NCBI RefSeq assembly: GCF_022701295.1
Contig: NZ_CP033204.1
Location: forward strand, 248,001 to 312,000
Source: Sphingopyxis sp. YF1
GTDB lineage: Bacteria > Pseudomonadota > Alphaproteobacteria > Sphingomonadales > Sphingomonadaceae
DNA length: 64,000 nucleotides
Direction: 5' to 3'
Translations under genes and position numbers: made by a program
In this document: piece after piece, positions 9,497-37,257 of the stretch
Layout of the letters: each line of letters starts with the position of its first letter
Numbering within the stretch: position 1 is the stretch's first letter
Notes under the pieces: generated by a model
Database searches by the model: none
What the model was told of the DNA's origin: nothing
What the model saw: only the letters and a program-made list of their open reading frames with translations

Positions 9497-9511
9497 CGTC
9501 CCCGCCTTTCC

Positions 9512-12184
<2,673 letters not shown>

Positions 12185-15303: not shown

Positions 15304-15993
15304 ATGCCCGGCCTGCGTATTCGCGAGGACGGGTGGACGGCGGCGCGGACGCGGGTGTTCTTGGCCACGCTGACGCAGACGGGGTGCGTCGCCGATGCGG
15401 CGCGGATCGCGGGGGTCAGCACGACATCGGTCAATCGCTCGCGCGCGCTGTTCCCGCGCTTCGATGCGGCGTGCGCCGAGGCGCTGGCGAAGGCGCTGCG
15501 CGGGCTGGAGGCGGTCGCCTATCAGCGCGCGGTCGAGGGGCGCGAGACGATCATCTATCGCGGCGGCAAGGAGTTTGAGCGGCGGGTGACGCCGTCGGAC
15601 AATCTGTTGCGGCTGCTGATCAAGCGCGGCGACCTGTCGGGCGCGCTGGGACGGGTGATGACCCCCGCCGAGGCCGCGGCGTTCGTGCTGCCCGAGGCGG
15701 TGCGGCACCGTTTCATCGACCGCGCCGAATTTGAAAGCGGGATCGTGTTCGACGACGGGGTCAAGCAGCAGCGCCGCATCGTCACGCAGCAGGAGGTCGA
15801 CGCGATCCTGATCCAGCGCATCAACCTGGTGCGGCGGCGGCGCGCGATGCGGCGGAACGAGCCCGAGCGGCCGCGCTGCCCCGCGTGCGGCGGCCCCGCG
15901 CCGCCGACCGAGACCGAACTCGACGAAGCCTGGGCGGCCGAAGCGCCGCTGCGCGCCGCACTGCCCGCGCCCGCCGGGGACGACGCCGGCTGA
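15304..15993 (+). CDS. HTH-bearing protein, terminase small-subunit-like N-terminus
   Basis: A 229-residue protein of unknown function. The N-terminal TAARTRVFLATLTQTGCVADAARIAGVSTTSVNRSR region (quoted only in its outline) is a helix-turn-helix of the type seen in phage terminase small subunits and some regulators. The middle has RETIIYRGGKEFERRVTPSDNLL-like and FIDRAEFESGIVFDDGVKQQRR segments. A CPACGGPAPP motif near the C-terminus is half of a possible metal site. There is no large terminase or other phage gene nearby, so this is probably a domesticated or independent DNA-binding protein. The ATG at 15304 precedes the first structured segment; the upstream frame runs through repeat hairpins and is unlikely to be translated. 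Confidence 0.6.
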   Translation: MPGLRIREDGWTAARTRVFLATLTQTGCVADAARIAGVSTTSVNRSRALFPRFDAACAEALAKALRGLEAVAYQRAVEGRETIIYRGGKEFERRVTPSDNLLRLLIKRGDLSGALGRVMTPAEAAAFVLPEAVRHRFIDRAEFESGIVFDDGVKQQRRIVTQQEVDAILIQRINLVRRRRAMRRNEPERPRCPACGGPAPPTETELDEAWAAEAPLRAALPAPAGDDAG

Positions 15994-16015
15994 TCTCGCG
16001 CCGGCGCCGCGGCGC

Positions 16016-16342
16016 TCAGCGCCCGACGGTCAGCGTCCCGGTCATGCCCGGATGATAGACGCAGTAGAAGGCGATGCGCCCCGCGCGTTTGAGTATCGTC
16101 CGGCCGCTCTTGCCCGGGGGCAGGTCGACGTTGAAGCTGCGGTCGCGCGCGGTCGCGGTGTGGCGGAACATGTCCCGGTTGACCCACAGGATCGTGTCGC
16201 CGACGCGCGCGCCGGGCGGCACCGCGCCGAACTTCATCTGGTCGATCACCACATTGTAGACTTTGGGCGCGGGCGCGGGGGCCGCGCCGCCGATCAGCGG
16301 CGCGGCGGCCAGCGCGGCGGCGGCGAGCAGCGCCCGGGTCAC
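16016..16342 (-). CDS. Small periplasmic cupredoxin
   Basis: A 108-residue secreted blue-copper-type protein. A signal peptide (TRALLAAAALAAAPLIGGAAP after the start residue, quoted here in outline) precedes a single cupredoxin domain. Type 1 copper ligands are in place: a His in DMFRHTAT, then the Cys-His-Met set in FYCVYHPGMTGTL. It could carry electrons in the periplasm or buffer copper. The start is a GTG overlapping the upstream DUF4142 gene stop by 4 bases (GTGA). The two proteins are therefore made together. Confidence 0.87.
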   Translation of the reverse strand: MTRALLAAAALAAAPLIGGAAPAPAPKVYNVVIDQMKFGAVPPGARVGDTILWVNRDMFRHTATARDRSFNVDLPPGKSGRTILKRAGRIAFYCVYHPGMTGTLTVGR

Positions 16343-23275: not shown

Positions 23276-24295
23276 TCAGGCGGTCCCGCGCAGCGCGAGC
23301 CGGACGGGGACGCGCGTGCCGTCGCGGGCATGCAGGTCGTCCTCGAGCGCCATCGCGACGAGCGCTTCGCCCGCGGCCTCGAGGTCGGGCTCGATCGTCG
23401 TGAGCGCCGGGTCGGCGAGGGTGCCGGCGCGGATGCCGTCGAAACCGATCAGCGCGACATCCTCGGGCACGCGGCGGCCGCTTTCCTTGAGGCCCTGCAG
23501 CACGCCGAGCGCGAGCATGTCGGTCGCGGCGAAGATCGCGTCGACGTCGGGGTGCGCGGCGATCAGCTCACGCGCGCCGGTAACGCCCTGCGCATGGCGG
23601 TCGGCGGCGGGGATCGCGGGCCAGACGATCGGCGCCAGCCCGTGATCAGCGAGCGCGGCGGTCAGCCCCTCGCGCCGCTCGTCGAACTGGCGCTGCGCCG
23701 AATCGGCGGGGCCGATGAAGGCGATGCGGCGGCGTCCCTGCGCGACCAGGTGCGCGGCGGCAAGGCGGCCGCCCGCGTCATTGTCGCTGCGCATCCAGTG
23801 GAAGGGATCGCCGGGGCTGCCCCAGCACACGAAGTCGAGGCCCGACGCCTGCGCCTGCGCAAAATAATCCCACGCCGCGTCGTTGCTGGTGGTGCCGATG
23901 ACGATCATCGCGTCGGCGAGCCCCGAGGCGACGAAATCGGCGCGGAAGTTGTCGGGGCCTTCCTGGAAACTGACGAGCAGGTTGAAGCGCCGCGCCGAGG
24001 TCGCCTCGGCGATGCTGCCGAGCAGCGCGAAATAAAAGGGGTTGATCGCGCTGCGATCCTCGCCGGGGCGGCAGATGGTGACGAGCGCGATCGTCTCGCT
24101 GCTTTTCAGGCGCAGGCTGGAGGCGTGGCGGTCGACGACATAGCCGAGCGCACGCGCCGCCTCCGACACGCGCGCGCGCGTCTCGGCGTTGACCCCGGGG
24201 CTGCCGCGCAGCGCGCGCGACACGGTCGATTGCGACACCCCCGCGCGCTCGGCGACGTCGAACGATGTCGGGCGCAGCATCTTGGCCGTGACCAT
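23276..24295 (-). CDS. LacI-family transcriptional regulator
   Basis: A 339-residue repressor-type protein. The N-terminal HTH is SFDVAERAGVSQSTVSRALRG followed by the hinge helix region (in outline). The C-terminal two-lobed sugar-binding-like domain shows ALVTICRPGED, NPFYFALLGSIAEAT, RRRIAFIGPADSAQRQFDERREG (in outline) and DAIFAATDMLALGVLQGL. It lies 60 bases downstream of the block of sulfotransferase genes on the same strand, so it may be read through from the lasso cluster, or it may regulate neighbouring genes. The effector is unknown. Confidence 0.92.
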   Translation of the reverse strand: MVTAKMLRPTSFDVAERAGVSQSTVSRALRGSPGVNAETRARVSEAARALGYVVDRHASSLRLKSSETIALVTICRPGEDRSAINPFYFALLGSIAEATSARRFNLLVSFQEGPDNFRADFVASGLADAMIVIGTTSNDAAWDYFAQAQASGLDFVCWGSPGDPFHWMRSDNDAGGRLAAAHLVAQGRRRIAFIGPADSAQRQFDERREGLTAALADHGLAPIVWPAIPAADRHAQGVTGARELIAAHPDVDAIFAATDMLALGVLQGLKESGRRVPEDVALIGFDGIRAGTLADPALTTIEPDLEAAGEALVAMALEDDLHARDGTRVPVRLALRGTA

Positions 24296-24355: not shown

Positions 24356-25111
24356 TCAATCGGCGGCGGACCAGCCGTGCGCGCGCACCCATGCGACCAG
24401 CGCGACGTCGCCCGGCGAATCGGCGTGGATGCGCGCGCGCAGCGCGTCGTCGAGCGTGACGCGGCGCGCGAGCGCTTCGTCGCGCGCCGGGTGCGACTCC
24501 GGGAGCGTCGAGGCCGCGTCGGCGGTGCGGTGGCGGCGCCAGCCGGCGGGAATGCCCATCGCGTCGCACAGGAAATCGAGCCCCGCGTTCCAATGTTCGG
24601 TCGTCGTGACGAACCAGCAGCGGCCGAGCATCTGCTGCGCCATCGCCAGTTGCTGTGCGGGGTCGGCGGGCAGGTCGGCGCCATAGAGCGTTTCGGCGAA
24701 GAAACGCACCATGAAGTCCGATTGGCGCTCGCGATACCAGCCCTCGTACCAGCGCTCGAAATCGTCGGGCGCATGCCCCCGGCTCCAGCGGAAATTATAC
24801 AGCGAGACGCAGCGTTCGGCGGGGTCGCGCAGCACCGTGATGAAGCGCGCCTCGCGCGGCCCGGGAACAAGCTGGCGGATGCGCAGGTCGAGGTGGTGCC
24901 CCGCCAGCACCTCGGCGCGCGCGCGCTCGGCGGCGGGGCGGTCGGCGAAGTCGGGGCGGCCGTGCCTTGTGCGATAGCTGCGCCCCCAGTGGGTGAAGTC
25001 GACGAGTTGCTCGTCCATCGTGAAATGGCGCTCGAGGTGCGCCTTCAGCGTCGTGCCGCCGCATTTGGGCACGTGGAGGAAGATCCAGAGCGGGCGGCCG
25101 GGATCGCTCAT
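24356..25111 (-). CDS. Sulfotransferase family protein 1 (lasso cluster flank)
   Basis: A 251-residue PAPS-dependent sulfotransferase-like protein, of the family-2 (carbohydrate-type) appearance. The 5'-phosphosulfate loop is FLHVPKCGGTTLKAHLERHF and the 3'-phosphate binding segment is VLRDPAERCVSLYN. It overlaps the next upstream gene by 4 bases (25108-25111) and so belongs to the long minus-strand chain running from the lasso cyclase. The acceptor is unknown: a cell-surface glycan or the lasso peptide are both possible. Confidence 0.82.
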   Translation of the reverse strand: MSDPGRPLWIFLHVPKCGGTTLKAHLERHFTMDEQLVDFTHWGRSYRTRHGRPDFADRPAAERARAEVLAGHHLDLRIRQLVPGPREARFITVLRDPAERCVSLYNFRWSRGHAPDDFERWYEGWYRERQSDFMVRFFAETLYGADLPADPAQQLAMAQQMLGRCWFVTTTEHWNAGLDFLCDAMGIPAGWRRHRTADAASTLPESHPARDEALARRVTLDDALRARIHADSPGDVALVAWVRAHGWSAAD

Positions 25112-25908
25112 GCCGCGCCGGCGGCATAGCCGAAGCCGGCGAGCAGGTCGCGCCGGGCATCGAAGACGGCATCGAGGTCGGCGATCTCGCCGGGGGTCAG
25201 CCGCGCGATCTGTTCGGCGTTCATGTCGCGCAGCGGTTCGTCATAGCGCCCCTTGACCGCGCGCGGACGGGCAAGGTCGAGGTCGTCGAAGCCCGGCACG
25301 AGCGCGGCGATACGCGCCGCGACCGCCGCGGGATCGGCGCACATTTCTTCATAGGTAAAGACGGCGGCGCGGTCGCCGAGCGCCGCGATATTCGCCGCCT
25401 GCGCGGCGAGCGCGGCGACGATGTGCCGCGCCGCGGCGGTCGCGAGGCTGTCGCCCGGCGCGACGGGGCCCGCGGCGGCGGCGCGGCGCAGGATGCCCTC
25501 GGCGACGGCATGGGGGTTGCGGACCATGATCAGGAAGGCGGCGCCCGGAAATTCGGCGGCGAGCGCGTCGGCGATCAGCAGGAAGGGCGGCGAGGCGACG
25601 ACGAGCGTGTCGGCGTCGGCCTGCGCGGCGCGGGCGTGGAAATCCCATGCGCGGCGGGTGCGCGTCCAGTCATAGGCGGCGGGGTCGCGAAAGGCGGCGA
25701 TCGACGCGGGGGTCGCCGCCCACAGCAGGCGGGTGCCGGTGCCGCGCGAGCTGGGGCCGTGGAAACCCGCGACATGCTGTCCCTCGCGCGGCAGCGACCA
25801 GGCGCGCGCGCAGCCGGCGAGCGCGGCGGCAAGGAAGGTCGAGCCGCTGTTGTTCGGCGCGAGCAGGAAGAGGTGGCGCCGCACCGCGCCCGCCGCGCCG
25901 GCGATCAT
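25108..25908 (-). CDS. Sulfotransferase-like protein 2
   Basis: A 266-residue protein with a sulfotransferase-like P-loop, HLFLLAPNNSGSTFLAAALAG, and a second segment FLIMVRNPHAVAEGILRR that corresponds to the 3'-phosphate-binding Arg/Asn region. The Lys of the classical PKSG loop is not present (PNNSGST instead), as in several divergent bacterial members. That makes catalytic activity less certain than for its neighbours. Start and stop overlap neighbouring genes by 4 bases on both sides, so it is co-translated with the GT8 gene upstream. Confidence 0.72.
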   Translation of the reverse strand: MIAGAAGAVRRHLFLLAPNNSGSTFLAAALAGCARAWSLPREGQHVAGFHGPSSRGTGTRLLWAATPASIAAFRDPAAYDWTRTRRAWDFHARAAQADADTLVVASPPFLLIADALAAEFPGAAFLIMVRNPHAVAEGILRRAAAAGPVAPGDSLATAAARHIVAALAAQAANIAALGDRAAVFTYEEMCADPAAVAARIAALVPGFDDLDLARPRAVKGRYDEPLRDMNAEQIARLTPGEIADLDAVFDARRDLLAGFGYAAGAA

Positions 25909-26753
25909 CGCCGCGCCCGCAGCCACGCGGCGCGCGCCGCGATCCACAGGTCGAACGCCTCGGCATAGGCGGGGTCGCGCGCGATCGCGTCGGCGTGGCG
26001 GTCGGGGCGCCACGGCTTGGCGGGGCCGTTGAAATGTAGGACGCGCGCGGCATCGACCGCCACCGGCTCGTGCGCGAAGCTCGTCCGGCGGTGCGTCATC
26101 ATCAGGTTGAATTCGGTGCCGACAAGGTGGACGCGGTCGCGCAGCAGCAGGTTCCACACGGCCTGGTCGGTGTGCTGCGACGCGATGCGCGACCAGGCTT
26201 CGGGATCGAGCAGCGGCCAGAGCGCGTCGGCCGTCGCGGCGCCCGCGGCGGCGGGGTCGTGGACGAGCAGCCCGGCGTTGAAGCTCGCGGCGCGCGCGCC
26301 GTCGGCCGGCGCGACCTCGGCGAGCGTGCCGGGGGCGCGGACATTGCCGCGCAGCATCGCGGCGTCGGGTGCGGCGACGAGCGGCGCGTCGATCGCGAGC
26401 AGCGGCGCGATGTCGCCGCGGAACAGCATGTCGCTGTCGCAGAAGAGCGCCTTGCCGCCGGGCGGAAGCAGCAGCGTCTCGAGGCTGAGGAAGCGGTCGC
26501 GGCGCGTGGCGAGATGTGGGTGTGCGGCGACGAGCGTGTCGATCGCGGCGGCGAGCCGCGGGCTCGCGCGGCGGCACGACAGGCGCGGGAAGGCGGCGGC
26601 GAGCGCGGCTTCGTCGGCGGCGGTCAGCCGGCTGTGGAGGATCAGTATCTCGCCGTCGAACCAGGCGTTGGCGGCGAGGAAGCTCGCCAGCATCACCTCG
26701 GTCCCGACGCGGAAGTCGGGCGATGAGACGGTGACGAGCGTCGCGGCGCTCAC
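25905..26753 (-). CDS. GT8-like glycosyltransferase
   Basis: A 282-residue retaining glycosyltransferase of GT8 type. The nucleotide-sugar metal motif is ALFCDSDMLFRGD (DSD at 106-108), the middle contains ASFNAGLLVHDP, and the C-terminal HFNGPAKPWRPD is the HxxGxxKPW motif of GT8 enzymes. It would transfer a sugar from a nucleotide donor to an unknown acceptor. It lies in an overlapping chain with three sulfotransferase-type genes and the lasso cyclase, which points to a shared product or a shared surface-modification pathway. Confidence 0.8.
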   Translation of the reverse strand: MSAATLVTVSSPDFRVGTEVMLASFLAANAWFDGEILILHSRLTAADEAALAAAFPRLSCRRASPRLAAAIDTLVAAHPHLATRRDRFLSLETLLLPPGGKALFCDSDMLFRGDIAPLLAIDAPLVAAPDAAMLRGNVRAPGTLAEVAPADGARAASFNAGLLVHDPAAAGAATADALWPLLDPEAWSRIASQHTDQAVWNLLLRDRVHLVGTEFNLMMTHRRTSFAHEPVAVDAARVLHFNGPAKPWRPDRHADAIARDPAYAEAFDLWIAARAAWLRARR

Positions 26754-27382
26754 GGCGCCGCCGCGGGGTCGTAGCCGAACAGCGCGAAGTCGCGCGCATA
26801 GCGGGTGCGGATCAGCTCGGCGAGTTCGGCGTCGAGCACGGCGCCCGGGGTTTCGGGCGAGACATTGACCGCTTCGAGCGGCGCCAGCGGGGCGCCGAGC
26901 GCCGCCGACAGGCGCACCATCTCCGCCGCGAGGCTTTCGTGGCGGAGGAGGAGCGTCGTGCGGACGCGGCCCTCGGCGTCGCAGACGAATTCATGCTGCG
27001 GGCGCAGCAGGATATGGTCGCGGCGCGCGGGGTCGGTGAGCGCCGCCTTCATCGTGCCGAGCGGGTCGCGCGTCATCGCGTCGCCGCCGCGCCACGCGAA
27101 GCGCGCGAAGGAGAGGAAGCGGTCGAAGGGCGAGCGGACGACCGCGAAGCTCGTCATGCGGTCCCACTGCCCGGGCAGAAGGAAGGGTTCGACGTCGCGA
27201 AACGACAAATGACCATGGCCAAATGCTGCAAGTGGTGCGACGGGGAAAAAGCGCTTTTCAAACAAAGTGCACTGTTCCCAGTCATTTGGCGCCAGCAAAG
27301 GACGCAATGTCGTGCGCAGTGCATGCCCCCCAGTCTTCGGCACCGCAATAAAGGCGAAATCGCGGCTGAACGAAAGGATCAT
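26750..27382 (-). CDS. Sulfotransferase family protein 3
   Basis: A 210-residue family-2-type sulfotransferase: FAFIAVPKTGGHALRTTLRPLL (PAPS loop with PKTGG), then SFAVVRSPFDRFLSFARFA (3'-phosphate-binding Arg-Ser) and LRPQHEFVCDAEGRV, a layout seen in PF03567-like proteins. The ATG at 27382 overlaps the stop of the lasso cyclase gene by 4 bases, so it is translated directly after the cyclase. This tight coupling makes it the sulfotransferase most likely to be part of lasso maturation. Confidence 0.83.
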   Translation of the reverse strand: MILSFSRDFAFIAVPKTGGHALRTTLRPLLAPNDWEQCTLFEKRFFPVAPLAAFGHGHLSFRDVEPFLLPGQWDRMTSFAVVRSPFDRFLSFARFAWRGGDAMTRDPLGTMKAALTDPARRDHILLRPQHEFVCDAEGRVRTTLLLRHESLAAEMVRLSAALGAPLAPLEAVNVSPETPGAVLDAELAELIRTRYARDFALFGYDPAAAP

Positions 27383-29202
27383 GGCTTCGGTGCGGCCGGG
27401 TCGGTGGGGATGTCGAGAAACTGGATCGCGATACGTAGCGCCGCATCGCGGTTCGTACCGGTGCGGCGCGTGTCGGCGAGGCGGGCGCGGAGTGCCTCCA
27501 TGTCGATGTATCGTGCGCGCGTCGGCGGCGTTGGCGCCGCGTCGAGGCGGTCGGCGATGCGCGCGATCGCTTCGCCCATCGCCTTTTCGATCCATGCGAC
27601 GCGCAGCGGCTCCTTCTTGCTGTTGTTGAGGCGAACGAGGTCGGGGAGAAGCCCTTCGCTGGCTTGGCGGATCAGCCACCGCCGCATCGGACCGCGGCGG
27701 AACATGCGCGGGGGAAGCGTGTAGAGAAATTCGAGCAGGCGGCGGTCGAGCAGCGGGAAGCGATAGTCGATGCCATGTGCTGCACCGCTGATCGCCCAGT
27801 CTTCAAGCCGTGCCGTGGTTGAGCTGTAGCGGAGCAGATCATGCTGCGTCCGGCGCACCCCGAATTCGCGCAGGCGCGGGATGGGAAGCAACCGGGTCTG
27901 GCGCAGGAAGCCCCGATCAATGAGACTCTTGCCCGCCCGCGCGCGCCAGCGCAGCGGCAATTCTGGCCGGAATTCGCGAATCAAACGGCGGCCGGCGTGA
28001 TAGATGGTCCGCAGCCCGGCCTTGATCCCCGGCGCGCCGCGGTCGCGGTAAAGCGTGCGCCAGCGGCCGGTCGCGAAAAGCCATGGATGATAGCCGCGGC
28101 CGTTGAAGGATGCGCCTTCGTCACCTCCCCAGCCCGACAGGATGACCTCTGTGCCCTGCGCTGCCGCATCGCGCTGGATAGCACCCTCGTGCAGCAGATT
28201 GCGGATGTCCGGACCGCGCGTCCAGTCCTGCGCGAAGAGGGCCGCGATTTCCTCGATGGACAGCGCGGGCGCGTGGAGTTCGAGCCCGAGACGCTCGCGA
28301 ATCGATTCGCTCCAGCCCGGCTCGGTGTCGGGAACCGCGTCGGGGTCAACGAGATGCCAACTGTAACCGCGCGGATCGGCAAGTCCGCGCGCGCGCAGTT
28401 CGGGAACCGCTAGCGCCGCAATGAGCGAGGAATCGAGGCCGCCACTGAGATGGACGGCAAAGCTGGTTGCGCCGGCCATACGGTCGGTCACCGCCTGGGT
28501 AACCAACATGCGGTAGCGCGCGATGGTTTCGGCATCGCCGGCGGTGTTGTCGACCGCAATGCTTTCGGGCCCCCACCAGCGGTCAATCCGCGCGTGACCG
28601 TTCGAAACATGAAGGTAATGACCGGGCTCGAGGCGGCGCATGGCACGGATGAAGCTGCGGCCGAGCGGTTCGAAGGTGCGATGGATCAAGGTTGATGCTA
28701 CGAATTCTTCATCGAAATCGAGGGGAATGTCGGGAAGCGCCAGCAACGCCGCTGGGTCGCTCGCGAAGGCGAGACGGTCGTCGGCGAGGGCGTAGAAGAA
28801 AGGGCGCGCGCCGACATGGTCGCGCGCTGCGAAGCCGTCACCGCTGTGCAGGTCGTGCAGTGCGAAGGCGTAGTCACCGTAGAGATGCAAGGGGCAGTCG
28901 ACGCCCCAACGGCGCCATGCGGCAGCGATGAGTGCGGTCGCGGGTGCGCCGACGTCCGGTGCGTCTTCGGCGAGCGCGGCGCGCAATTCGGCTTGGCCAT
29001 CAATGCGCGCGTCGGCCACGAGAATCAGTCTGTCGTCGACATGGAGCGCGCCGCGCGATGTGATCGACCCCGTCGTCGCCAGTGCTGCGAAGCGTGCTTC
29101 GCCGCCAGTCAGGATCGCGGCGTCAGCGCTGAGCGCTTCGGCGATGAAATTCTCGCCCGCTCGGATTCCGCGCCGGTCAATGATGCCGCAAAACCGATGC
29201 AT
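27379..29202 (-). CDS. Lasso peptide macrolactam synthetase (C protein, asparagine synthetase-like)
   Basis: A 607-residue asparagine-synthetase homologue. An N-terminal glutaminase-like domain (HRFCGIIDRRG...ILVADARIDGQAEL) lacks a catalytic Cys at position 2, as is usual for lasso cyclases. The C-terminal domain has the ATP pyrophosphatase motif HLSGGLDSSL (253-259) and VILSGWGGDEGASFNGRGYH. In lasso pathways this enzyme adenylates the ring Asp/Glu side chain and closes the isopeptide bond to the core N-terminus. Context confirms the role: precursor and B1 lie upstream, B2 and exporter on the divergent arm. I chose the ATG at 29202 because it starts the glutaminase fold; a TTG at 29319 would add 39 residues. 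Confidence 0.9.
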   Translation of the reverse strand: MHRFCGIIDRRGIRAGENFIAEALSADAAILTGGEARFAALATTGSITSRGALHVDDRLILVADARIDGQAELRAALAEDAPDVGAPATALIAAAWRRWGVDCPLHLYGDYAFALHDLHSGDGFAARDHVGARPFFYALADDRLAFASDPAALLALPDIPLDFDEEFVASTLIHRTFEPLGRSFIRAMRRLEPGHYLHVSNGHARIDRWWGPESIAVDNTAGDAETIARYRMLVTQAVTDRMAGATSFAVHLSGGLDSSLIAALAVPELRARGLADPRGYSWHLVDPDAVPDTEPGWSESIRERLGLELHAPALSIEEIAALFAQDWTRGPDIRNLLHEGAIQRDAAAQGTEVILSGWGGDEGASFNGRGYHPWLFATGRWRTLYRDRGAPGIKAGLRTIYHAGRRLIREFRPELPLRWRARAGKSLIDRGFLRQTRLLPIPRLREFGVRRTQHDLLRYSSTTARLEDWAISGAAHGIDYRFPLLDRRLLEFLYTLPPRMFRRGPMRRWLIRQASEGLLPDLVRLNNSKKEPLRVAWIEKAMGEAIARIADRLDAAPTPPTRARYIDMEALRARLADTRRTGTNRDAALRIAIQFLDIPTDPAAPKP

Positions 29203-29447: not shown

Positions 29448-29588
29448 TCAGGAAGGGTCGTAGAAGGCGTCGTCCTGGTCGTTCTGACCGAAGGCACCGC
29501 CGCGGGTGCGCGCCGCCGGAACGACAGAGCGCAGTTCGGGCTTTTTCCATTCCTTGCGCGGCACTTGCTTGTTCACGGTCTTGGTCAT
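29448..29588 (-). CDS. Lasso peptide precursor (A)
   Basis: A 46-residue peptide gene, too short for a usual ORF cutoff. The leader contains WKKPEL (W14-P17-L19), which matches the YxxPxL recognition motif bound by B1 proteins with Trp in place of Tyr, and a Thr at the penultimate leader position (T28). The predicted core is GGAFGQNDQDDAFYDPS (30-46). Gly1 can be cyclised to Asp8, the only acidic residue at ring positions 7-9, leaving a nine-residue tail with one Tyr and a C-terminal Ser. The ATG is preceded by GGGGGT nine bases upstream. An in-frame ATG at 29624 would lengthen the leader by 12 residues. It lies between B1 and C on the same strand. Leader, ring residue and context agree; the product itself is inferred. 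Confidence 0.9.
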   Translation of the reverse strand: MTKTVNKQVPRKEWKKPELRSVVPAARTRGGAFGQNDQDDAFYDPS

Positions 29589-29718: not shown

Positions 29719-30003
29719 TTATTGAAGCGTAACCAGTCCCTTGTCCGCGAGTTCGGCAATGAACGTCCCCGTTTCATCGCGACAGGCGTTTGAATCGACC
29801 GAGTATTCGGCGAGCAGCGCTTCGCATATCTGGTCGAGCGTGGCCGGCGATTCGAGCAGGGCCCAGATCCGGCCGCCCACCGAATCGATGTCGAAATAAT
29901 TGCCGCTATCGATGTCCATCATCATCAGCCCGTCGTCGAAATCGTTGAACAGGACCGACGGATTGCGTGTGATCAAAGTATTGCCAGCGATTGCGGCCAT
30001 CAT
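29719..30003 (-). CDS. Lasso peptide B1 protein (PqqD-like RiPP recognition element)
   Basis: A 94-residue PqqD-family protein. The core LFNDFDDGLMMMDIDSGNYFDIDSVGGRIWALLESP (in outline: MDIDSGNYFDID is the typical PqqD turn) and the helical LDQICEALLAEYSVD segment form a RiPP recognition element. This element binds the precursor leader and delivers it to the B2 peptidase. A GGGGGTAAG ribosome site resembling the precursor's precedes two adjacent ATGs; the first is used here. It lies 130 bases upstream of the precursor gene and downstream of the sulfotransferase and kinase. B1 and B2 are separate proteins and lie on opposite arms of this cluster. Confidence 0.9.
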   Translation of the reverse strand: MMAAIAGNTLITRNPSVLFNDFDDGLMMMDIDSGNYFDIDSVGGRIWALLESPATLDQICEALLAEYSVDSNACRDETGTFIAELADKGLVTLQ

Positions 30004-30055: not shown

Positions 30056-30910
30056 TCAAGCGAACAGGTCGGGAAGATAATCGAGGCGGCGCATCTGTTC
30101 GCGATGATCGGCGACGATGCGTTCAATCTGTGCCGACGTCAGCGCTTCGGCTCCTTCGCCGGCGCGGCCGCTGCGAAAGAAGGCAGGCATGTTGGCGGGC
30201 TTCTCGGCAAACCCCTCGGAAGCTTCGCGCGCCTGTAGCGCCGCGATGCTGCTCGCCGCCGCTGCAGCGGCGATCGCGGCGGGCGACGCGTCGATCCCCG
30301 CCGCCGTCGCGACGCGCGTCAACGCCGCCGCGGGATCGGCGAGCATGTCCTCGTAGCGCAGCAGGCATAGCGGAATTGCGTCCTGAGCGGTCCAGCTTGC
30401 GACATGGTCGTTCCAGCGACCGAGATGGACGGGCAGGAAGTCGCTGATCCGGTCGGGCCACGCGTTGAGCATCGCACCCGGGTCGGACATGCGCGCGATC
30501 GTCGCATCGATATCCTTCTGGCCGTGGTGCGCAAAGGACAGCGCGACGTCGAGCGGGTTGCGGACGATATACACGACGGCACGGCTGGTATCGGTCGGGA
30601 AGAGCGCGGTGCCGTCGGGGGCCAGCGCATATTGGTCGTGCGTCTTGATGAAGAAGGGCGCGCGGGCTTCTGCAGCGATCTGGCGGTGGAGCATGGCGCG
30701 ATACCGAATGAGTTCGGCGGTCGTCATTTCGGCCGAAGCAATGCCGCAGGCGTCGTCGAGCGTGTGGCGATCGCCCCCCTCGATCCCGCCGTCGAGCGCG
30801 TTGAGGCTGAAATTCTCGCCGGGCGTATGGAGCAGGTGGGTAAGCATCACGCGCAACCAAGTGTTCCCAGATTTGGGGTAGGATGCGAGCCAGACGATGC
30901 TTCCGGTCAT
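30056..30910 (-). CDS. Sulfotransferase family 1 protein in the lasso operon
   Basis: A 284-residue PAPS sulfotransferase. The 5'-phosphosulfate loop is WLASYPKSGNTWLRVML (YPKSGNTW 11-18), the 3'-phosphate site is YIVRNPLDVALSFAHHG, and FFIKTHDQY carries a possible catalytic His. The C-terminal FFRSGRAGE corresponds to the G-x-x-G segment that closes over PAPS. These signatures are complete, so the enzyme is probably active. It lies 3 bases after the kinase gene and 52 bases before B1, inside the lasso operon proper. Tyr43 or Ser46 of the precursor are candidate acceptors by inference only. Confidence 0.9.
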   Translation of the reverse strand: MTGSIVWLASYPKSGNTWLRVMLTHLLHTPGENFSLNALDGGIEGGDRHTLDDACGIASAEMTTAELIRYRAMLHRQIAAEARAPFFIKTHDQYALAPDGTALFPTDTSRAVVYIVRNPLDVALSFAHHGQKDIDATIARMSDPGAMLNAWPDRISDFLPVHLGRWNDHVASWTAQDAIPLCLLRYEDMLADPAAALTRVATAAGIDASPAAIAAAAAASSIAALQAREASEGFAEKPANMPAFFRSGRAGEGAEALTSAQIERIVADHREQMRRLDYLPDLFA

Positions 30911-30913
30911 CGG

Positions 30914-31843
30914 TCAGCCGGCGCGCGTGAGCTCGGCGCCGAGCGCGAAATGGTCGATTACCGCGCCCGCCATGGCGGCGGGCGTCGTGCCGAGCCCGGG
31001 GCGGCCGATCGCGACCATCTCGATCGATTGCGCGAGGCGGACCACTGCGTCGAACGCCCATGGCTGGAGACCGAGTCCGCGCAGGAAATTCTTGCGATGG
31101 ACATAGCGGGCGAGCGCCTCGACCCGGTTTGCCATCGGCACGTCGCGCCGCGTAATCGCGCTGCCATTATGCCCCTGGAGCAGCACCACGCCGCGGATCG
31201 GCATCGGTGCGGCGCGAAAGCGCGGGACGGCGACATAATATTTTTCCATGTCCTCGCGGACGCGGACCCTGGCGTCGTCGTCGCGGCCGAGCAGCGAGAG
31301 GCTGTCGCGCCAGAGCCGCATCGCGGGGAAGGCGGGGATGGCGGTCGCGCCCGCGGTGTCGACGGTCACCCCGGTGACATCGTCGGCGAGCATCGTGCAA
31401 CCCGCGGCGACCAGCCCGCCGAGCGTCGTCGACTTGCCCGCGCCCGAACGGCCGATGACGAGGATCGCGCCGCGGTCGCTGGCGATCGAACAACTGTGTA
31501 CCGGCAGGATGTGCCGCTGCATCAGAAGCGCCGAAATGCCGGTGCCGAGCAGGATCGAGACGAGCGCGGCATCGGTCGCGCCGGCTTCGCGATCGACGAG
31601 GATCGTCGTGCCGCCCGACACGAGCAGGCGGCAGATGCCGAAGGCGTGGAAAAGGAGTTCGCCGGGTTCGGCGCGCCAGTTGCGGAAATGCATCGCGTCG
31701 GCAAGCCGGTCGTCGGCGATGGAGGCAAGACGGATGTCGACGTCGGCGGGTGCGGCGGGATCGCCGGGCAGCAGATGCGGCAGCGCGAGATCGGAGCGCA
31801 GGGCAAGGCCGTAGTGGCTGTAGAAGAAGGGTGCGGCGCTCAT
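30914..31843 (-). CDS. HPr-kinase-like lasso peptide tailoring kinase
   Basis: A 309-residue protein with an HprK/P-like C-terminal fold: LPVHSCSIAS (H116), ILVIGRSGAGKSTTLGGL (Walker A, 131-139) and CTMLADDVTGV with acidic pair D154-D155. The N-terminal ~100 residues are a variable domain typical of this branch. In paeninodin-type lasso clusters such kinases phosphorylate the hydroxyl of a C-terminal Ser of the precursor. The precursor here ends in Ser, so the same reaction is likely. It overlaps the hydroxylase gene by 4 bases upstream and is followed by the sulfotransferase after 3 bases. Confidence 0.88.
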   Translation of the reverse strand: MSAAPFFYSHYGLALRSDLALPHLLPGDPAAPADVDIRLASIADDRLADAMHFRNWRAEPGELLFHAFGICRLLVSGGTTILVDREAGATDAALVSILLGTGISALLMQRHILPVHSCSIASDRGAILVIGRSGAGKSTTLGGLVAAGCTMLADDVTGVTVDTAGATAIPAFPAMRLWRDSLSLLGRDDDARVRVREDMEKYYVAVPRFRAAPMPIRGVVLLQGHNGSAITRRDVPMANRVEALARYVHRKNFLRGLGLQPWAFDAVVRLAQSIEMVAIGRPGLGTTPAAMAGAVIDHFALGAELTRAG

Positions 31844-32433
31844 GTCGCGGGGGCCGCGCCGGGGGCGTCCCGGGTCGCGGCGCGATCGAAGACTTCGAAG
31901 ATGAAATGGATGCGGTCGGCGTCGCCTTCGTTCACCCCGCCGTGCGGCGCGATATTATTGACTTCCCATGCATGACCCGAGGCGAGGTGATGGCGATTGG
32001 GTCCGCAGAGGAAGAAAGCGCCGGGGTTGGTGACGAGCGGCACATGGATCTTGTGCGTGCGTAGATTCGATCCGGCGCCGTCGCGGTGAAGATCAATGAT
32101 TTGCCCTGCTTCGAGCCGCGCGAGCATCGCTTTCGGGAAGGCGGGATCGACAAAGCCATAGGGGGCGACCGCAGCATCCATCACCGGTTGCAGCAACGGG
32201 CGCCAGACGTGCCAGGCGGGGTTGTCGTAGCTGTCCTCGGGGTCGCGGTTGCCCGGGGTGAAGCGGAAGACGATGTGGCGCGTGTGGTGGAAGACCTCGA
32301 AATCATTTTCCTTGAGGGCATCCTCGCCCGCCCAGGCGCGCTCACCGACCGCGACCACGCGGTCGCGGAGCGCCGACGCATCGACCGGCCCGAGGTCGCG
32401 CACGGTCGTAGGTTTGGTGACGATGACGGCCAT
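31840..32433 (-). CDS. Aspartyl/asparaginyl beta-hydroxylase-like Fe(II)/2OG oxygenase
   Basis: A 197-residue protein with the double-stranded beta-helix of aspartyl/asparaginyl hydroxylases. IIDLHRDGAGSNLRTHKIHVP carries the first metal His (H116), and EVNNIAPHGGVNEGDADRIHFIFE (in outline) carries the second (H164) and the 2-oxoglutarate Arg (R174). It is first in the minus-strand lasso operon, overlapping the kinase gene by 4 bases. The core has one Asn and four Asp outside any ring-bond residue, so peptide Asp/Asn hydroxylation is a reasonable inference; other lasso pathways are known to use such hydroxylases. Confidence 0.85.
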   Translation of the reverse strand: MAVIVTKPTTVRDLGPVDASALRDRVVAVGERAWAGEDALKENDFEVFHHTRHIVFRFTPGNRDPEDSYDNPAWHVWRPLLQPVMDAAVAPYGFVDPAFPKAMLARLEAGQIIDLHRDGAGSNLRTHKIHVPLVTNPGAFFLCGPNRHHLASGHAWEVNNIAPHGGVNEGDADRIHFIFEVFDRAATRDAPGAAPAT

Positions 32434-32584: not shown

Positions 32585-33814
32585 ATGGCGGACGAAGAGC
32601 ACGCGCGGAAGGGTCCCGGCGACGCGGTGCCGTCGCTCGCCGACCTCGTCGCGCCGCTCGACGCTGGCACCTTTCTGGACGAATATTGGAACCGTGGCTT
32701 TCGCGCCTGGCCCGGCCGGCCGGAACAATTCGCGGGCCTGATCGGCTGGGACGAGATCAACCATGTGCTGACGACGCAGCGGCTCGAACCGCCGCGCATC
32801 CAGCTCGTTCGCGGCGGCAAGAAGGTCGAGGCTGGGGCGTTCGTGCATGCGACGGGGAGCAACCGACGGCTCGACGCGGGGGCGGTGACGGCGCAACTGG
32901 CGCAGGGCGCCACGCTGGTGCTGAGCTTCGTCGACGAGATGATTGCACGGGTAGGCGATCTGGCCGACGGGATCGGCCGCGACCTCGGCGTGCGTTGCAA
33001 CGTCAACCTCTATGCCGGATGGCGCGCCGACCACGGGTTCGACCTGCACTGGGACCATCACGACGTGTTCATCCTGCAGGTTGCGGGCCGCAAGCACTGG
33101 CGCGTCCAGCGGCCGACGCGCGACAGGCCCGCGCGCGGCGAGACGGTGCCCCCGCCGGCGGCGGACGATGTTCCGGTCCATGACGAAATCCTCGAGGAAG
33201 GCGGCCTCCTCTATATCCCGCGCGGCTGGTGGCACGTCGCGACCCCGGTCGAGGAACCGAGCCTGCACCTGACGCTGGCGCTGACGCCGCCGACGGGGCA
33301 GGATTATCTGCGCTGGCTGACGGGCAAGGCGGCAAGCCTGCCGCTGTTTCGCGCCGACTGGCCGGTGGCGGGCGGGGCGAGTGCGACCGACGCGCACTGG
33401 CGCGCGCTGGGCGCGGCGCTGGCCGATTTGCACGCGGCCTGTCCCCCGGAGCAATTCCTTGCCGAGCAGGAAGCGTCGCGCGCCGCGCGACCGGTGTTCA
33501 CCCTGCCCGATTTCGCGGCGGGGCGGATGGTGCGGCTGTCGGACGGCAGCCGCCTGCGGCTCGCGAGCGCGCGGGCGCTGGTGCCTGAACACGACGCGGT
33601 GAGCAGCGAGAGCGGGATTGAGGCGAACGGCCGTTTCTTTGCCTGCGGCGCCGAGGCGGGCGCCGTGCTCGGCCGGTTGACGAGCGCCGGCGATACGCCG
33701 TTCGCGGCGCTGGCCGAGGGGCTCGACCCGGCCGTGCGCGCCGAGGTCGAGCAATTGCTGATCCGGCTGGTCGCGGCGGGCGCGGTTTTCGTCGACCTCG
33801 GCTCGCCGCCATGA
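32585..33814 (+). CDS. JmjC-domain Fe(II)/2OG oxygenase (RoxA-like)
   Basis: A 409-residue oxygenase. The cupin core reads NLYAGWRADHGFDLHWDHHDVFILQVAGRKHW (in outline), with metal ligands H155 and D157 (HWD), and LLYIPRGWWHVATP supplies the distal His (H217). This matches JmjC ribosomal-oxygenase-like proteins, which hydroxylate side chains in proteins. The remaining ~190 residues form a winged-helix-like C-terminal region (ALAEGLDPAVRAEVEQLLIRLVAAGAVF in part). It opens the plus-strand arm, and its stop overlaps the B2 start by 4 bases, so it is co-translated with the leader peptidase. A peptide substrate is likely by context, but unproven. Confidence 0.85.
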   Translation: MADEEHARKGPGDAVPSLADLVAPLDAGTFLDEYWNRGFRAWPGRPEQFAGLIGWDEINHVLTTQRLEPPRIQLVRGGKKVEAGAFVHATGSNRRLDAGAVTAQLAQGATLVLSFVDEMIARVGDLADGIGRDLGVRCNVNLYAGWRADHGFDLHWDHHDVFILQVAGRKHWRVQRPTRDRPARGETVPPPAADDVPVHDEILEEGGLLYIPRGWWHVATPVEEPSLHLTLALTPPTGQDYLRWLTGKAASLPLFRADWPVAGGASATDAHWRALGAALADLHAACPPEQFLAEQEASRAARPVFTLPDFAAGRMVRLSDGSRLRLASARALVPEHDAVSSESGIEANGRFFACGAEAGAVLGRLTSAGDTPFAALAEGLDPAVRAEVEQLLIRLVAAGAVFVDLGSPP

Positions 33815-34296
33815 GCCGCCTTGGCCTGGCCCGGCGCAAGCTGGCGAGCGCGTGGCGGCTCGGCGGACCGCGCGTACTGCTGGTCGCCGAAGCGGGGGTG
33901 CTGTTGCTGGCGGCGCGGATCGCGGTGGCGATGCTGCCCTTTCGCCGCGTCGCGCGCTGGCTGGGACAGCCCGTCGCACCGTCGGCGCTGCCGCCGGTGC
34001 CGTCACGTTCGGGCCCGGACGACGCCGCGACGCGGGTCGGCTGGGCGGTGCGCTTCGCCGCCGGACGCTTGCCGGTCGAGGCGGTATGCCTGCCGCAAGC
34101 GATGGCGGCGCGCGCGATGCTGCGACGGCGGGGCATCGCGTCGACGGTGCATCTGGGCGTGATGCGCGACCATGGGGCCGCGCTGGCGATCGATCCCGAC
34201 GCGCCGCCGGCGCATGCGTGGCTCGATGCGTCGGGGCAGCGGATCACCGGCTATCCGGTCGACCCCGCGCTGGTCGAGGTGGCGGCTTTTGTCTGA
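33811..34296 (+). CDS. Lasso peptide B2 leader peptidase (transglutaminase-like)
   Basis: A 161-residue protein of the lasso B2 (transglutaminase core 3) family. The catalytic triad is visible: Cys93 in EAVCLPQAMAARAML, His135 in PPAHAWLDASG and Asp139 in the same motif. Together with B1 it cuts the leader from the core before cyclisation. An N-terminal hydrophobic stretch (VLLVAEAGVLLLAARIAVAML) may keep it near the membrane. It overlaps the JmjC gene by 4 bases and is directly followed by the exporter gene. Confidence 0.92.
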   Translation: MSRLGLARRKLASAWRLGGPRVLLVAEAGVLLLAARIAVAMLPFRRVARWLGQPVAPSALPPVPSRSGPDDAATRVGWAVRFAAGRLPVEAVCLPQAMAARAMLRRRGIASTVHLGVMRDHGAALAIDPDAPPAHAWLDASGQRITGYPVDPALVEVAAFV

Positions 34297-34303
34297 CCCG
34301 GCG

Positions 34304-36025
34304 ATGCCCGTCGCGCCCCGCGCGCTGCTGATGGCGATGTTCGCCGCCGCCGACCGGCGCCGGCTGATCGTCGTGCTGACGCTGATGACCCTCGCGGCGC
34401 TTACCGAGGGGGTTGGCATCATGATGCTGGTGCCGATGCTGGCGCTGGTCGGCGGCGAAGGCGCAGGGCTGGGCGGGAGCGGGGGCTTCGGCGGGCTGCT
34501 GACGCGCGTTGCGGGCAGCCTTTCGCTCGGACAGGTGCTGCTGATCTTCCTCGCGCTGCTGGTCGTGCGCGCCGCGGTCAAGCATGCGCAGACGATCCAT
34601 GCGCTCGAGCTTCAGCATGTCGTTGTCGACCGGTTGCGCGAAACGCTCTTCGCCGGGCTGGTGTCGGCCGAGTGGCGCTGGTTGACGGCGCAGCGCGCGT
34701 CGGACCATGCGAGCCTGCTGATCACCGACATCGGACGGATCGGGGGCGCATTCCAGCAGTTACTGACGCTCGCGGCGACGCTGATCACCGTCATCGCCTA
34801 TCTTGCCGCGGCGTTCCTGCTGTCGTGGCAGGTGGCGCTTGTCGCCATGCTCGGCGGCGCGATCATCCTGTTCGGCTTTGCCGGCCACCGCCGCCGCGCG
34901 GTCGCGCTCGGCCGTTCGCTGAGCGGCGCGAACAAGGCGTTGCAGGCTGAAGTGGGCGAGAGCTTCGACGCGATACGCATCACCAAGATGCTGGGCAGCG
35001 AGGCGCGTCAGCGCGCGCGCTTCGCCGCCGTGTTGCAGTCGCTGCGCGTGCGGCAGATCGATTTCGCCGCGAGCGCGAGCCACGGGCGGATCGCTTTGCA
35101 GCTCGCGGGCGGAGCGTTGATGGCAGCGCTCGTCTATGTCGGGCTGGCGTTGCTCGACCTGCCGCTCGCAGCGCTGCTGCCGATCCTGCTCGTCTTTGCG
35201 CGGCTGGTGCCGATGCTGGGGATCATCCAGCAGAGCTGGCATGCTTGGCTGCACGCGGCGCCCGCGATGGCCGAGGCCGACGGGTTGCGGCGCACGGTCG
35301 CGACCGTGGCCGAGGCGCCGGCGCCGGTGGACGCGCTGCCGATCGGCCTCGCGCACGCCGTGACGTTGCGCGGCGTCGGCTTTACCTATGCCGGGCGCGC
35401 CGGTGCGGCGCTGGCGGACATCGACCTCGACCTGCCGGCGCGGACCACGACCGCGATCGTCGGACCCTCGGGCGCGGGCAAGAGCAGCCTTGCCGACATA
35501 TTGATGGGGCTGCTGTCGCCCGACACGGGCACGATGCGCGTCGACGATATGGCGATCGCGGGCGCGACGCGGCAATTGTGGCGGCGTTCGGTTGCCTATG
35601 TGCAGCAGCAGCCCTTTCTGCTGGGCGGCAGCATCCGCGACAATCTGTTGTGGGCGGCGCCTGGCGCCGACGCGGCGGCGCTCCGCGCGGCGCTCGAAAA
35701 GGCGTCGGCCGAGTTCGTCTTTGCGTTGCCGCAGGGGATCGACACTGCGGTGGGTGACCGCGGGCAGCAATTGTCGGGGGGCGAACGGCAGCGCATCGCG
35801 CTTGCGCGCGCGCTGCTCCTGTCGCCCGAGCTGCTCGTGCTCGACGAGCCGACGAGCGCGCTCGACCCCGCGAACGAGGCGGCGATCCGCCGCGCGATCG
35901 CGGGGCTGCACGGCGCGGTGACGCTGGTGATCATCGGCCATCGCCGCACGATGCTCGACCTTGCCGACCAGATTGTGCGGATCGAACATGGGCGGGTCGT
36001 TCCGGCGGCGGAGGCGGCCGAATGA
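34304..36025 (+). CDS. Lasso peptide ABC exporter (D)
   Basis: A 573-residue half-transporter with six membrane helices (residues ~20-300) fused to an ABC ATPase. Walker A is VGPSGAGKSSLAD, the Q-loop is AYVQQQPFLLGGSI, the signature is QLSGGERQRIALARAL and Walker B is LLVLDEPTSALDP. It should export the mature lasso peptide and give immunity. The ATG at 34304 was used; a TTG at 34289, which overlaps the B2 stop and has GAGGTGG upstream, is an alternative adding five residues. The following gene overlaps its stop by 4 bases. Confidence 0.92.
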   Translation: MPVAPRALLMAMFAAADRRRLIVVLTLMTLAALTEGVGIMMLVPMLALVGGEGAGLGGSGGFGGLLTRVAGSLSLGQVLLIFLALLVVRAAVKHAQTIHALELQHVVVDRLRETLFAGLVSAEWRWLTAQRASDHASLLITDIGRIGGAFQQLLTLAATLITVIAYLAAAFLLSWQVALVAMLGGAIILFGFAGHRRRAVALGRSLSGANKALQAEVGESFDAIRITKMLGSEARQRARFAAVLQSLRVRQIDFAASASHGRIALQLAGGALMAALVYVGLALLDLPLAALLPILLVFARLVPMLGIIQQSWHAWLHAAPAMAEADGLRRTVATVAEAPAPVDALPIGLAHAVTLRGVGFTYAGRAGAALADIDLDLPARTTTAIVGPSGAGKSSLADILMGLLSPDTGTMRVDDMAIAGATRQLWRRSVAYVQQQPFLLGGSIRDNLLWAAPGADAAALRAALEKASAEFVFALPQGIDTAVGDRGQQLSGGERQRIALARALLLSPELLVLDEPTSALDPANEAAIRRAIAGLHGAVTLVIIGHRRTMLDLADQIVRIEHGRVVPAAEAAE

Positions 36026-37257
36026 CCGAGCGCGCGGCGCTGGCCCGGCTGCTGCTCGACATGCTTGCCAAGACGCGCACGGTCGATCGCGCCGCCCTCG
36101 CCGCGCTGTCCGATGGTGCGTGGGAAACGATCGCCGACATGGCGAAGCAGCACCGTCTTGCCCCTCTGCTGCACCGCCAGATGGCGGATCGCGGCGCCGA
36201 CTGGCCGGTACCCGCCGACTTGCGGGCGCGCTGGACGCGCGGCTGGCGCGCGGCGAGCGAACGGTCGCTGAGCGTCCAGCAGGCGCTGATCGCGGTCGGC
36301 GGAATCGCCGATCGGGCGGGGCTGCCGTGGGCCGCACTCAAGGGCGCGTGGCTCGCGTGGCAGGCCTATCCGCACCCCGCGATGCGGCCGATGCGCGACA
36401 TCGACCTTTTGCTGAGCGAAGAGGATGCGCTGCGCCTGTTTGCGTTGATGCAGGACGCCGGCGCGGCGGCGGGTCCGGTGTCGCACACCCCGGTCGATTA
36501 TGCGCGCGCGCACCACAAGCATTTGCCGCCGCTGCACTGGGGACCGCGCCATATCGCGTTCGAAATCCACTGGCGCCTGTCGAACCCGGCGCCGGGCGAG
36601 GATCGCGCGGCGGTGGCGGCGACCACCGCCGGACTGCTCGCGCGGCGCATGCGCGCGCGCATGGGGCCGGCCGAGATCGCCTATCTGGACCCCACCGACA
36701 CGCTGCTGCATCTGGTCGTGCACGCGGCCTATGGACGCCAGCCGTTCGATAACGGGCCGCAACTGCTGCCCGACATCGCGGGCGCGGTGCGCGCGGCGAC
36801 GATCGACTGGCCGCGCTTCTGGCGCGTGGCGGACGCGCAGGGCTGGGCGGGCGGCGCGCGGCTGATTTTCGCTTTGACCGCGAAATATATGGGGCCGCTG
36901 GCAGGCGCGGGTGTCGAAGTCGCGCGGGTGCCTGGTGCGCTGATCGCCAAGGCCGAAGCGCTGATGCTGCAGGACATGGACGCGCGCGCCGAGCGCGGCT
37001 TTGCGACGTACATGGCCGAAGCCGACGGGGCCGGCGGCCGCGCCGCGCTGTTGCTGCGGCGCGCCTTTCCGCCGCGTCACATCGTCGCGCATTATGCCGG
37101 GGTGCCGGTGGGCGACTGGCGCGTATGGCCGGCCTATCCGCTGCGCATGGCCGACAATGCCTGGCAATGGCTGCGCCGGCGCGGCGATGCCGGGCTGGAC
37201 GCCGAGGTGGACGACATGCGCGCGATGCGCGCCTGGCTGGGCACCGGGAAGTCCTAG
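36022..37257 (+). CDS. Lasso-cluster nucleotidyltransferase (NTP_transf_5-like)
   Basis: A 411-residue protein of the nucleotidyltransferase family seen next to lasso genes. LPWAALKGAWLAWQAYP and MRPMRDIDLLLSEEDA contain the Lys and the DxD pair of the catalytic site, and FEIHWRLSN supplies a further acidic/His strand. In the pseudomycoidin pathway a related protein adds hexose to the phosphorylated C-terminal residue of the lasso peptide. With the kinase in the same cluster, a follow-on modification of phospho-Ser is plausible. It closes the plus-strand arm; the next gene is convergent with a 4-base overlap. Confidence 0.83.
   Translation: MTERAALARLLLDMLAKTRTVDRAALAALSDGAWETIADMAKQHRLAPLLHRQMADRGADWPVPADLRARWTRGWRAASERSLSVQQALIAVGGIADRAGLPWAALKGAWLAWQAYPHPAMRPMRDIDLLLSEEDALRLFALMQDAGAAAGPVSHTPVDYARAHHKHLPPLHWGPRHIAFEIHWRLSNPAPGEDRAAVAATTAGLLARRMRARMGPAEIAYLDPTDTLLHLVVHAAYGRQPFDNGPQLLPDIAGAVRAATIDWPRFWRVADAQGWAGGARLIFALTAKYMGPLAGAGVEVARVPGALIAKAEALMLQDMDARAERGFATYMAEADGAGGRAALLLRRAFPPRHIVAHYAGVPVGDWRVWPAYPLRMADNAWQWLRRRGDAGLDAEVDDMRAMRAWLGTGKS

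Follow-up and report, generated by a model that had tools for sequence, protein, structure and literature searches.

The stretch of DNA analysed here (64,000 nucleotides of Sphingopyxis sp. YF1, positions 248001–312000 of a single 4.37 Mb contig, hereafter the window) carries a 46-residue reading frame on the minus strand between genes for a lasso-type recognition element (B1) and a lasso-type cyclase (C), and raises the question of whether this frame encodes the precursor of a lasso peptide, and what the genes around it would make of that precursor. The frame, at positions 29448–29588, translates as MTKTVNKQVPRKEWKKPELRSVVPAARTRGGAFGQNDQDDAFYDPS*. A sequence-only reading had placed it between the B1 and cyclase genes and had noted a WKKPEL leader motif, a Thr at the penultimate leader position, and a core with four Asp residues of which Asp8 is the sole acid at positions 7–9; all of this is borne out by translation and by the Pfam and NCBIfam assignments of the neighbours. 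The predicted core has 17 residues, with Asp at positions 8, 10, 11 and 15, and the leader shows the pattern of lasso precursors, [Y/W]xxP with Thr, Ile or Val at −2, which here is Thr. The motif had been taken as a variant of YxxPxL, and it is present as described, but WxxP is no oddity, Trp being reported as nearly invariant in the paeninodin-like lasso leaders of Bacillota (PMC13381572).

ORF 29448–29588 is very probably the real precursor (precursor A) of a lasso-type peptide. There are four grounds for counting it as more than chance. First, a protein search recovers eight distinct relatives with 65–89% identity, together with the same peptide with a longer start. Second, it scores 76.6 bits (E 1.1e-21) against the family profile, which contained precursor A itself. 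Third, a homologous cyclase adjoins its relatives in other genomes. Fourth, a G-rich stretch lies directly upstream and is a possible ribosome-binding site. A chance reading frame is ruled out by the relatives and the profile score. No Pfam or NCBIfam family matches the peptide, which fits its earlier description as unlisted, and its assignment to the adjacent B1, B2 and C agrees with the leader motif, Thr(−2), the resemblance of B1 to TbiB1, the presence of B2 and the ATP motif of the cyclase. An in-frame ATG upstream would give an alternative form of 58 aa; the shorter, 46-aa start matches several relatives. The closest named relatives of the window are Sphingopyxis. A DNA motif shared upstream of A and B1 was dropped, being present only in the window among the eight sequences scanned.

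The genes around the precursor are listed in Table 1. Read along the minus strand from 32433 to 24356, their order is AspH, K, ST_d, B1, A, C, ST_c, GT8, ST_b and ST_a, and on the plus strand, from 32585, JmjC_2, B2, the ABC exporter and NTP_transf_5.

Table 1. Features of the gene row in the window, with the number of loci carrying each gene among the 32 compared (counts include reading frames running off contig ends).
Feature	Positions	Strand	Matches and remarks	Loci of 32
LacI-type regulator, end of gene row, possible regulator	23276–24295	−	also in L061, L063, L064, L085	
ST_a, sulfotransferase-like, variable member	24356–25111	−	21.5 bits, just under cut-off of 22	8
ST_b, Sulfotransfer_3	25108–25908	−	42.1 bits, cut-off 27	27
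GT8, glycosyltransferase	25905–26753	−	Glyco_transf_8, 53.1 bits	29
ST_c, Sulfotransfer_2-like, variable member	26750–27382	−	27.3 bits, cut-off 22	9
C, asparagine-synthetase-like lasso-type cyclase	27379–29202	−	Asn_synthase (Pfam)	29
A, precursor peptide	29448–29588	−	leader MTKTVNKQVPRKEWKKPELRSVVPAARTR; predicted core GGAFGQNDQDDAFYDPS; translation, relatives, family profile	
B1, discrete PqqD-like recognition element, predicted binder of WxxP leader	29719–30003	−	PqqD, 63 bits	31
ST_d, Sulfotransfer_1, cassette core, candidate Tyr sulfotransferase	30056–30910	−	79.7 bits	29
K, HprK-type peptide kinase, predicted C-terminal Ser phosphorylation	30914–31843	−	weak HprK-related matches, below cut-offs	32
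AspH-fold Fe(II)/2-oxoglutarate oxygenase, predicted peptide hydroxylase	31840–32433	−	Asp_Arg_Hydrox, 39.4 bits	32 (uninformative, loci mostly picked by AspH)
JmjC_2 oxygenase-like, variable member	32585–33814	+	94.1 bits	6
B2, leader peptidase	33811–34296	+	Transglut_core3; lasso_biosyn_B2, 77.3 bits, cut-off 33	22
D, ABC exporter (start chosen by eye)	34304–36025	+	ABC_tran, 108.6 bits	13
N, nucleotidyltransferase-family protein	36022–37257	+	NTP_transf_5, 153.2 bits	16

By its gene content (A, B1, B2, C, D, K and N) the window holds a kinase-type lasso cluster. B1 scores 69.8 bits against the NCBIfam model lasso_PqqD_Bac, below the cut-off of 80, and its best PDB sequence match is the lasso recognition element TbiB1 (E 1.6e-12); for the cyclase, the top NCBIfam match is the lasso cyclase model, at 203.8 bits with a cut-off of 525. 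Both shortfalls were counted against a lasso reading. The cyclase ATP motif [ST]GGLDSS is intact in all ten aligned sequences, and B2 carries CLPQ and HAW motifs. The SYxKSG and RxPxD signatures of ST_d are kept in ten sequences, and its PDB matches include TEG12, Teg14, StaL and SULT enzymes, the first three of which sulfate glycopeptides. The AspH-fold oxygenase is 52–67% identical to nine relatives with its HxD invariant, and its predicted structure (pLDDT 89) resembles proline cis-4-hydroxylase and human AspH; as to its target, no single position is occupied by Asp/Asn, or by Pro, in every core. The His, GxxGxGKS and Asp-Asp of the kinase are invariant in 10 of 10 sequences, with the motif spacing listed for BsfK (PMC10368454).

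A cyclase-only search of 298 genomes of the host's taxonomic family, at a threshold of E 1e-60, matched ten, Sphingopyxis sp. YF1 included. In all nine others AspH, K, ST_d, B1 and GT8 surround the cyclase, with ST_b in eight; a precursor is found at eight of these nine loci and lies between B1 and C in seven. Scanning species genomes with the AspH alignment gave 128 loci, and among the best 80 of them 26 have the cassette or a partial cassette, six being genomes already seen; the other 54 are without the cassette or most of it (L076, L078, L081 and L092 included), and most of these, from Lysobacter and Caulobacter-type records, pair AspH with a single sulfotransferase-like gene and have no lasso genes. 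In G205 the AspH gene stands alone, the 19.5 kb examined there containing nothing else of the cassette. AspH was therefore rejected as a pathway marker by itself, and its matches were counted only together with other cassette genes. The pairing of AspH-like and sulfotransferase-like genes without lasso genes is seen in L086, L088–L091 and many of L094–L140 (Lysobacter, Caulobacter-type and other records), and the same pair occurs in Sphingopyxis sp. YF1 (L216, G000:C1:3646000-3665500).

The 32 loci of Table 1 consist of the window, the nine other cyclase loci, 20 of the 80 AspH-scan loci and two from G089; L065, L066, L067, L070, L073 and L080 were left out as duplicate genomes, and several of the loci end at contig ends. 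The conserved cassette comprises B1, B2, the lasso-type cyclase, the HprK-type kinase, two sulfotransferases, the AspH-fold oxygenase and the GT8 glycosyltransferase. It occurs in Sphingomonadales and in records labelled Pyrinomonadaceae, Acidobacteria (Acidobacteriota), Saprospiraceae, Chitinophagales, Rhodobacteraceae and Anaerolineales. Nearly all of those outside Sphingomonadales come from metagenome bins, and their taxonomic labels may be mistaken.

That precursor A is the only precursor of its genome had to be rejected, as a profile search found three more in Sphingopyxis sp. YF1, at contig positions 95526, 425721 and 1200427, with the cores GGIFQGRFTENPFYTVS, GGPLSPRFVENGIYGIS and GGGGTANDQDDATYDLS. 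In 24 cassette genomes the search gave 48 precursor matches at E 1e-3, using profiles that include many of the sequences they recover, and eight of these genomes have more than one precursor (8, 5, 4, 4, 3, 3, 3 and 2 copies). The dispersed siblings carry the same leader and tail. One other genome has seven further precursors far from its cassette, and in G222 none lies beside the cassette, all four being some 1.2 Mb distant from it on that contig. Of 396 Sphingomonadales genomes sampled across the order, eight gave precursors, and all eight have the cassette; the other 388 gave no precursor at E 1e-4 (at most 17 candidates per genome scored). The same eight genomes, and G205 besides, gave AspH matches at E 1e-80 or better (at most eight candidates per genome scored). 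On the strength of this co-occurrence we propose that the unlinked precursors would be served in trans by one cassette. A similar logic is known from the prochlorosins, lanthipeptides in which one enzyme set serves many precursors, some of them unlinked, with enzymes unrelated to those of the window; several lasso peptides have also reportedly been obtained from one cluster, in the case of the caulosegnins. The larger finding is the precursor family, beyond the single ORF, and we think it likely that precursor A is the resident representative of a group of lasso-type RiPP precursors which have a single modification cassette in common and are often encoded at several places in a genome.

The conserved part of this family is the C-terminal tail, rather than an acid at core positions 7–9. 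First, 54 of 55 unique cores end in Tyr-x1-3-Ser, namely 28 of the 29 resident ones and all 26 orphans (the L128 core ends in Thr); a resident core is one from a locus fetched for its cassette, and these include L092, where most of the cassette is absent, and L197, beside another C/B1/ST_d/K set. Second, Trp, Pro and Tyr are invariant in the 36 precursors of alignment A2, from which L092, L072, the orphans of G298, G300, G308 and G316 and the C1:425721 copy of Sphingopyxis sp. YF1 are absent; L072 and one L193 copy have the leader W..L. Third, nearly all leaders share a Trp–Thr spacing of 14, and this fixes the predicted start of the core (for L125, with Ile at −2, the register was set by hand from the standard spacing, which puts its acid at 9). 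Finally, there is no Asp or Glu at positions 7–9 in 22 of the 55 unique cores (10 of 29 resident, 12 of 26 orphan), which is odd for ordinary lasso peptides and counts against a lasso-type product.

The position of the acid varies further among the 28 cores with a single acid before the Tyr, where it is at 8 in three, 9 in ten, 10 in twelve and 11 in three, so that positions 10 and 11 together account for 15 of 28. In most Sphingomonadales cores the acids that align with one another lie four residues before the Tyr, at the place of Asp10 in precursor A. In 20 single-acid cores from the closer cassettes the distance from acid to end is 8 or 9, and its standard deviation is 0.40, compared with 0.79 for the distance from the N-terminus; with the Sphingomonadales cores L197 and L199 added these become 0.71 and 0.84, and over all 28 cores the N-terminal position is the tighter (0.82, with 1.39 to the end), which weakens the idea that the acid is fixed only by its distance to the tail.

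These positions bear directly on the ring. The product could be an ordinary kinase-type lasso peptide with Asp8 as the acceptor of an eight-residue ring, the rest of the Asp-rich tail only serving tail-modifying enzymes. Asp8 is indeed present, and it is kept in six of the eight distinct relatives (P0003–P0008); an acid stands at 7–9 in 33 of 55 cores; four of the six single-acid cores from loci not labelled Sphingomonadales (L087, L092, L093 and L125) have it at 9, a usual lasso place, the others at 10 and 11; and structurally characterised lasso peptides have rings of 7, 8 and 9 (June 2026 review, PMC13352647). However, the cassette-resident precursor of Sphingopyxis sp. KK2 (L064) has no acid before position 13, and the residents of four cassettes (L050, L051, L052 and L074, three distinct cores) have their only acid at 10. 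The Asp8 acceptor of the sequence-only reading is thus not secure, given the many cores without an acid at 7–9 and the single acids at 10 or 11, and both Asp8 and Asp10/11 are candidates in precursor A; that the peptide is an ordinary lasso peptide of this kind is quite possible, and we stop short of calling it probable. A ten-residue ring is chemically feasible, as an engineered fusilassin/fuscanodin analogue shows (PMC8498205). Lasso rings of this size are not known from nature.

It seems unlikely that the product is linear, or cyclised without threading, with the asparagine-synthetase-like enzyme acting in some other way and the whole system nearer to LPP. The LPP systems do show that a kinase and a recognition element can occur without a lasso ring, and they share with the window the recognition element, HprK kinase, NTP transferase and exporter (PMC13381572); the cyclase is divergent, and the acid closest to the Tyr is found anywhere between positions 8 and 13. 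Yet LPP is described with a YxxP leader, a signal-peptidase-like protease and no cyclase (PMC13381572), whereas the window has both a cyclase and a B2 with their catalytic motifs kept. A shift of register, with cleavage one residue later, after the first Gly, would turn the acid-10 cores into ordinary nine-residue rings, and most cores do begin Gly-Gly, so that the start could slide by one; this is nevertheless rather improbable, since the Trp–Thr spacing anchors the standard start and a slide of one is no help for acids at 11 or 13. Very improbable, finally, is that the sulfotransferases and GT8 serve a polysaccharide and are mere neighbours of the peptide pathway: paeninodin and LPP loci are often near capsular polysaccharide genes (PMC13381572), but K, B1 and AspH are accompanied by ST_d in 29, by ST_b in 27 and by GT8 in 29 of 32 loci, some from distant groups.

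Among known systems the paeninodin type (paeninodin; kinases PadeK, ThcoK and SyanK) shares with the window a discrete B1, B2, C and ABC exporter, as well as an HprK-type kinase, a C-terminal Ser and a WxxP leader (PMC9266682; PMC8498205; PMC13381572); in the window the kinase is recognised by its motif and weak profile matches, and the C-terminal Ser and WxxP leader are both present. The window cassette differs in adding AspH, two core sulfotransferases and GT8, and its family in having the acid at 8–13 and siblings of the precursor scattered over the genome. That some lasso clusters of Firmicutes contain a sulfotransferase gene had already been noted (Zhu 2016, as told in PMC8498205). The Bsf lasso cluster of Bradymonas and the pseudomycoidin (psm) cluster have A, B1, B2, C, D, K and N, all with counterparts here (PMC10368454), N being equated with PsmN/BsfN by annotation only, without alignment; PsmN has been linked to a hexose on phospho-Ser (PMC9266682). 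The descriptions consulted for these clusters mention no sulfotransferase or AspH set (PMC10368454, PMC9266682), and Bsf further differs in that its leader has Ile(−2) and BsfK acts on Ser3 (PMC10368454). Canucin A resembles the pathway proposed below in that the Fe/2OG enzyme CanE beta-hydroxylates Asp14 on the linear precursor with the assistance of B1, and differs in coming from Streptomyces and in that the description consulted mentions no kinase or sulfotransferase (PMC9266682). The sulfatyrotides, a RiPP class defined by Tyr sulfation, share the predicted sulfation of Tyr in a ribosomal peptide; their description mentions no lasso machinery, and they are set apart here by that description, not by sequence (PMC9484694).

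The analysis observed the gene set with its conservation and linkage, the leader and tail motifs, the scattered siblings and the co-occurrence of precursors with the cassette; we infer the chemical steps and their order, the ring, its threading and export. The product is most likely a macrolactam of lasso or lasso-like form that carries phosphate on the C-terminal Ser and also sulfate, probably on Tyr. B1 would bind the constant WxxP leader, and while the peptide is still linear K would phosphorylate the C-terminal Ser, the AspH-fold oxygenase would hydroxylate the core, and one or more sulfotransferases would place sulfate on the conserved Tyr, or on a group that GT8 or an oxygenase had introduced. 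B2 would then cleave after the residue next to Thr(−2), the cyclase would join Gly1 to an Asp or Glu side chain, in precursor A that of Asp8 (a ring of 8) or Asp10 (a ring of 10), and the ABC transporter would export the product; the single-acid relatives would give ring sizes from 8 to 11. The C-terminal Ser is the residue on which known lasso kinases act (PMC8498205), whereas BsfK phosphorylates Ser3, which counts against the proposed site (PMC10368454). The Thr end of the L128 core, the cassette of G222 with no precursor next to it, and a second lasso-type locus of Sphingopyxis sp. YF1 (L059, below) also weigh against the proposed pathway. Sulfation of Tyr is the simplest guess, because this residue is invariant in the 36 aligned precursors; a sugar or a new hydroxyl could be sulfated instead. 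The masses calculated for the core are 1802.702 when linear, 1784.691 when cyclised, 1864.648 for the cyclised form with SO3, 1864.658 with HPO3 (9.5 mDa apart) and 1944.615 with both. The earlier expectation of a product with the mass of the core minus one water is incomplete, as it ignores the kinase, the four sulfotransferase-like and two oxygenase-type genes, the glycosyltransferase and the nucleotidyltransferase-family gene of the cluster, and the three sibling precursors elsewhere; the conserved tail had likewise been missed.

More tentatively, the family may represent a cross-phylum class of lasso-like RiPPs with multiple modifications, in which one cassette matures unlinked precursors (up to eight per genome) with a constant leader and tail and a variable middle, with natural rings of at least ten residues and perhaps a sulfated Tyr as a bulkier stopper. 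An engineered ten-residue ring, a Tyr-sulfated RiPP class and a sulfotransferase gene in lasso clusters are already in print. In the open-licence papers searched we did not find the AspH/ST_d/ST_b/GT8 set as a conserved cassette, lasso precursors dispersed away from their cluster, or natural cores with their only acid at 10–11, each of which may have been described elsewhere, nor did we find there sulfation as a tailoring step of a lasso-type peptide. If the proposal is correct, sulfation would join the tailoring steps of such peptides, and the family would provide many natural lasso-type precursors handled in trans by one pathway, useful for studying cyclase tolerance, and a direct test of whether natural rings exceed nine residues. 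In that case, mining that expects an acid at 7–9, or a precursor adjacent to the cyclase, would miss such peptides; specific mining tools have rules of this kind.

Several further observations concern the variable genes and the dispersed precursors. In five of the six loci with JmjC_2 a precursor was found, and these cores are of the Asp-Asp type, most other loci having Glu-type cores; five of the six (the window included) are Sphingopyxis or close to it, so the link with core type may be kinship only. Sphingopyxis sp. YF1 has a second lasso-type locus (L059, G000:C1:1853000-1872900), in which genes resembling B2, B1 and the cyclase lie at about 9500–16075, together with a weak match to the kinase and a divergent gene that begins like a sulfotransferase (SHPRSGST, by eye); no precursor was recognised in this stretch, and the locus could also serve orphan precursors. 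A third B2-family (PF13471) match in this genome (L060, G000:C1:3932000-3951900) lies in a stretch with no match to the B1 or cyclase of the window. In three related genomes (L044, L048 and L049) the orphan precursors are divergent to a gene of the S9 prolyl-oligopeptidase family, the broad family to which known lasso isopeptidases belong. The S9 protein is a possible isopeptidase; acyl-peptide and prolyl peptidases head the best 60 of its 128 PDB matches, and the gene neighbourhood has the look of synteny shared among these genomes. One clustered precursor of Pontixanthobacter aquaemixtae (L193, about 8914–9072) has a weakened leader (W..L, with no Thr at −2) and is perhaps a decaying copy.
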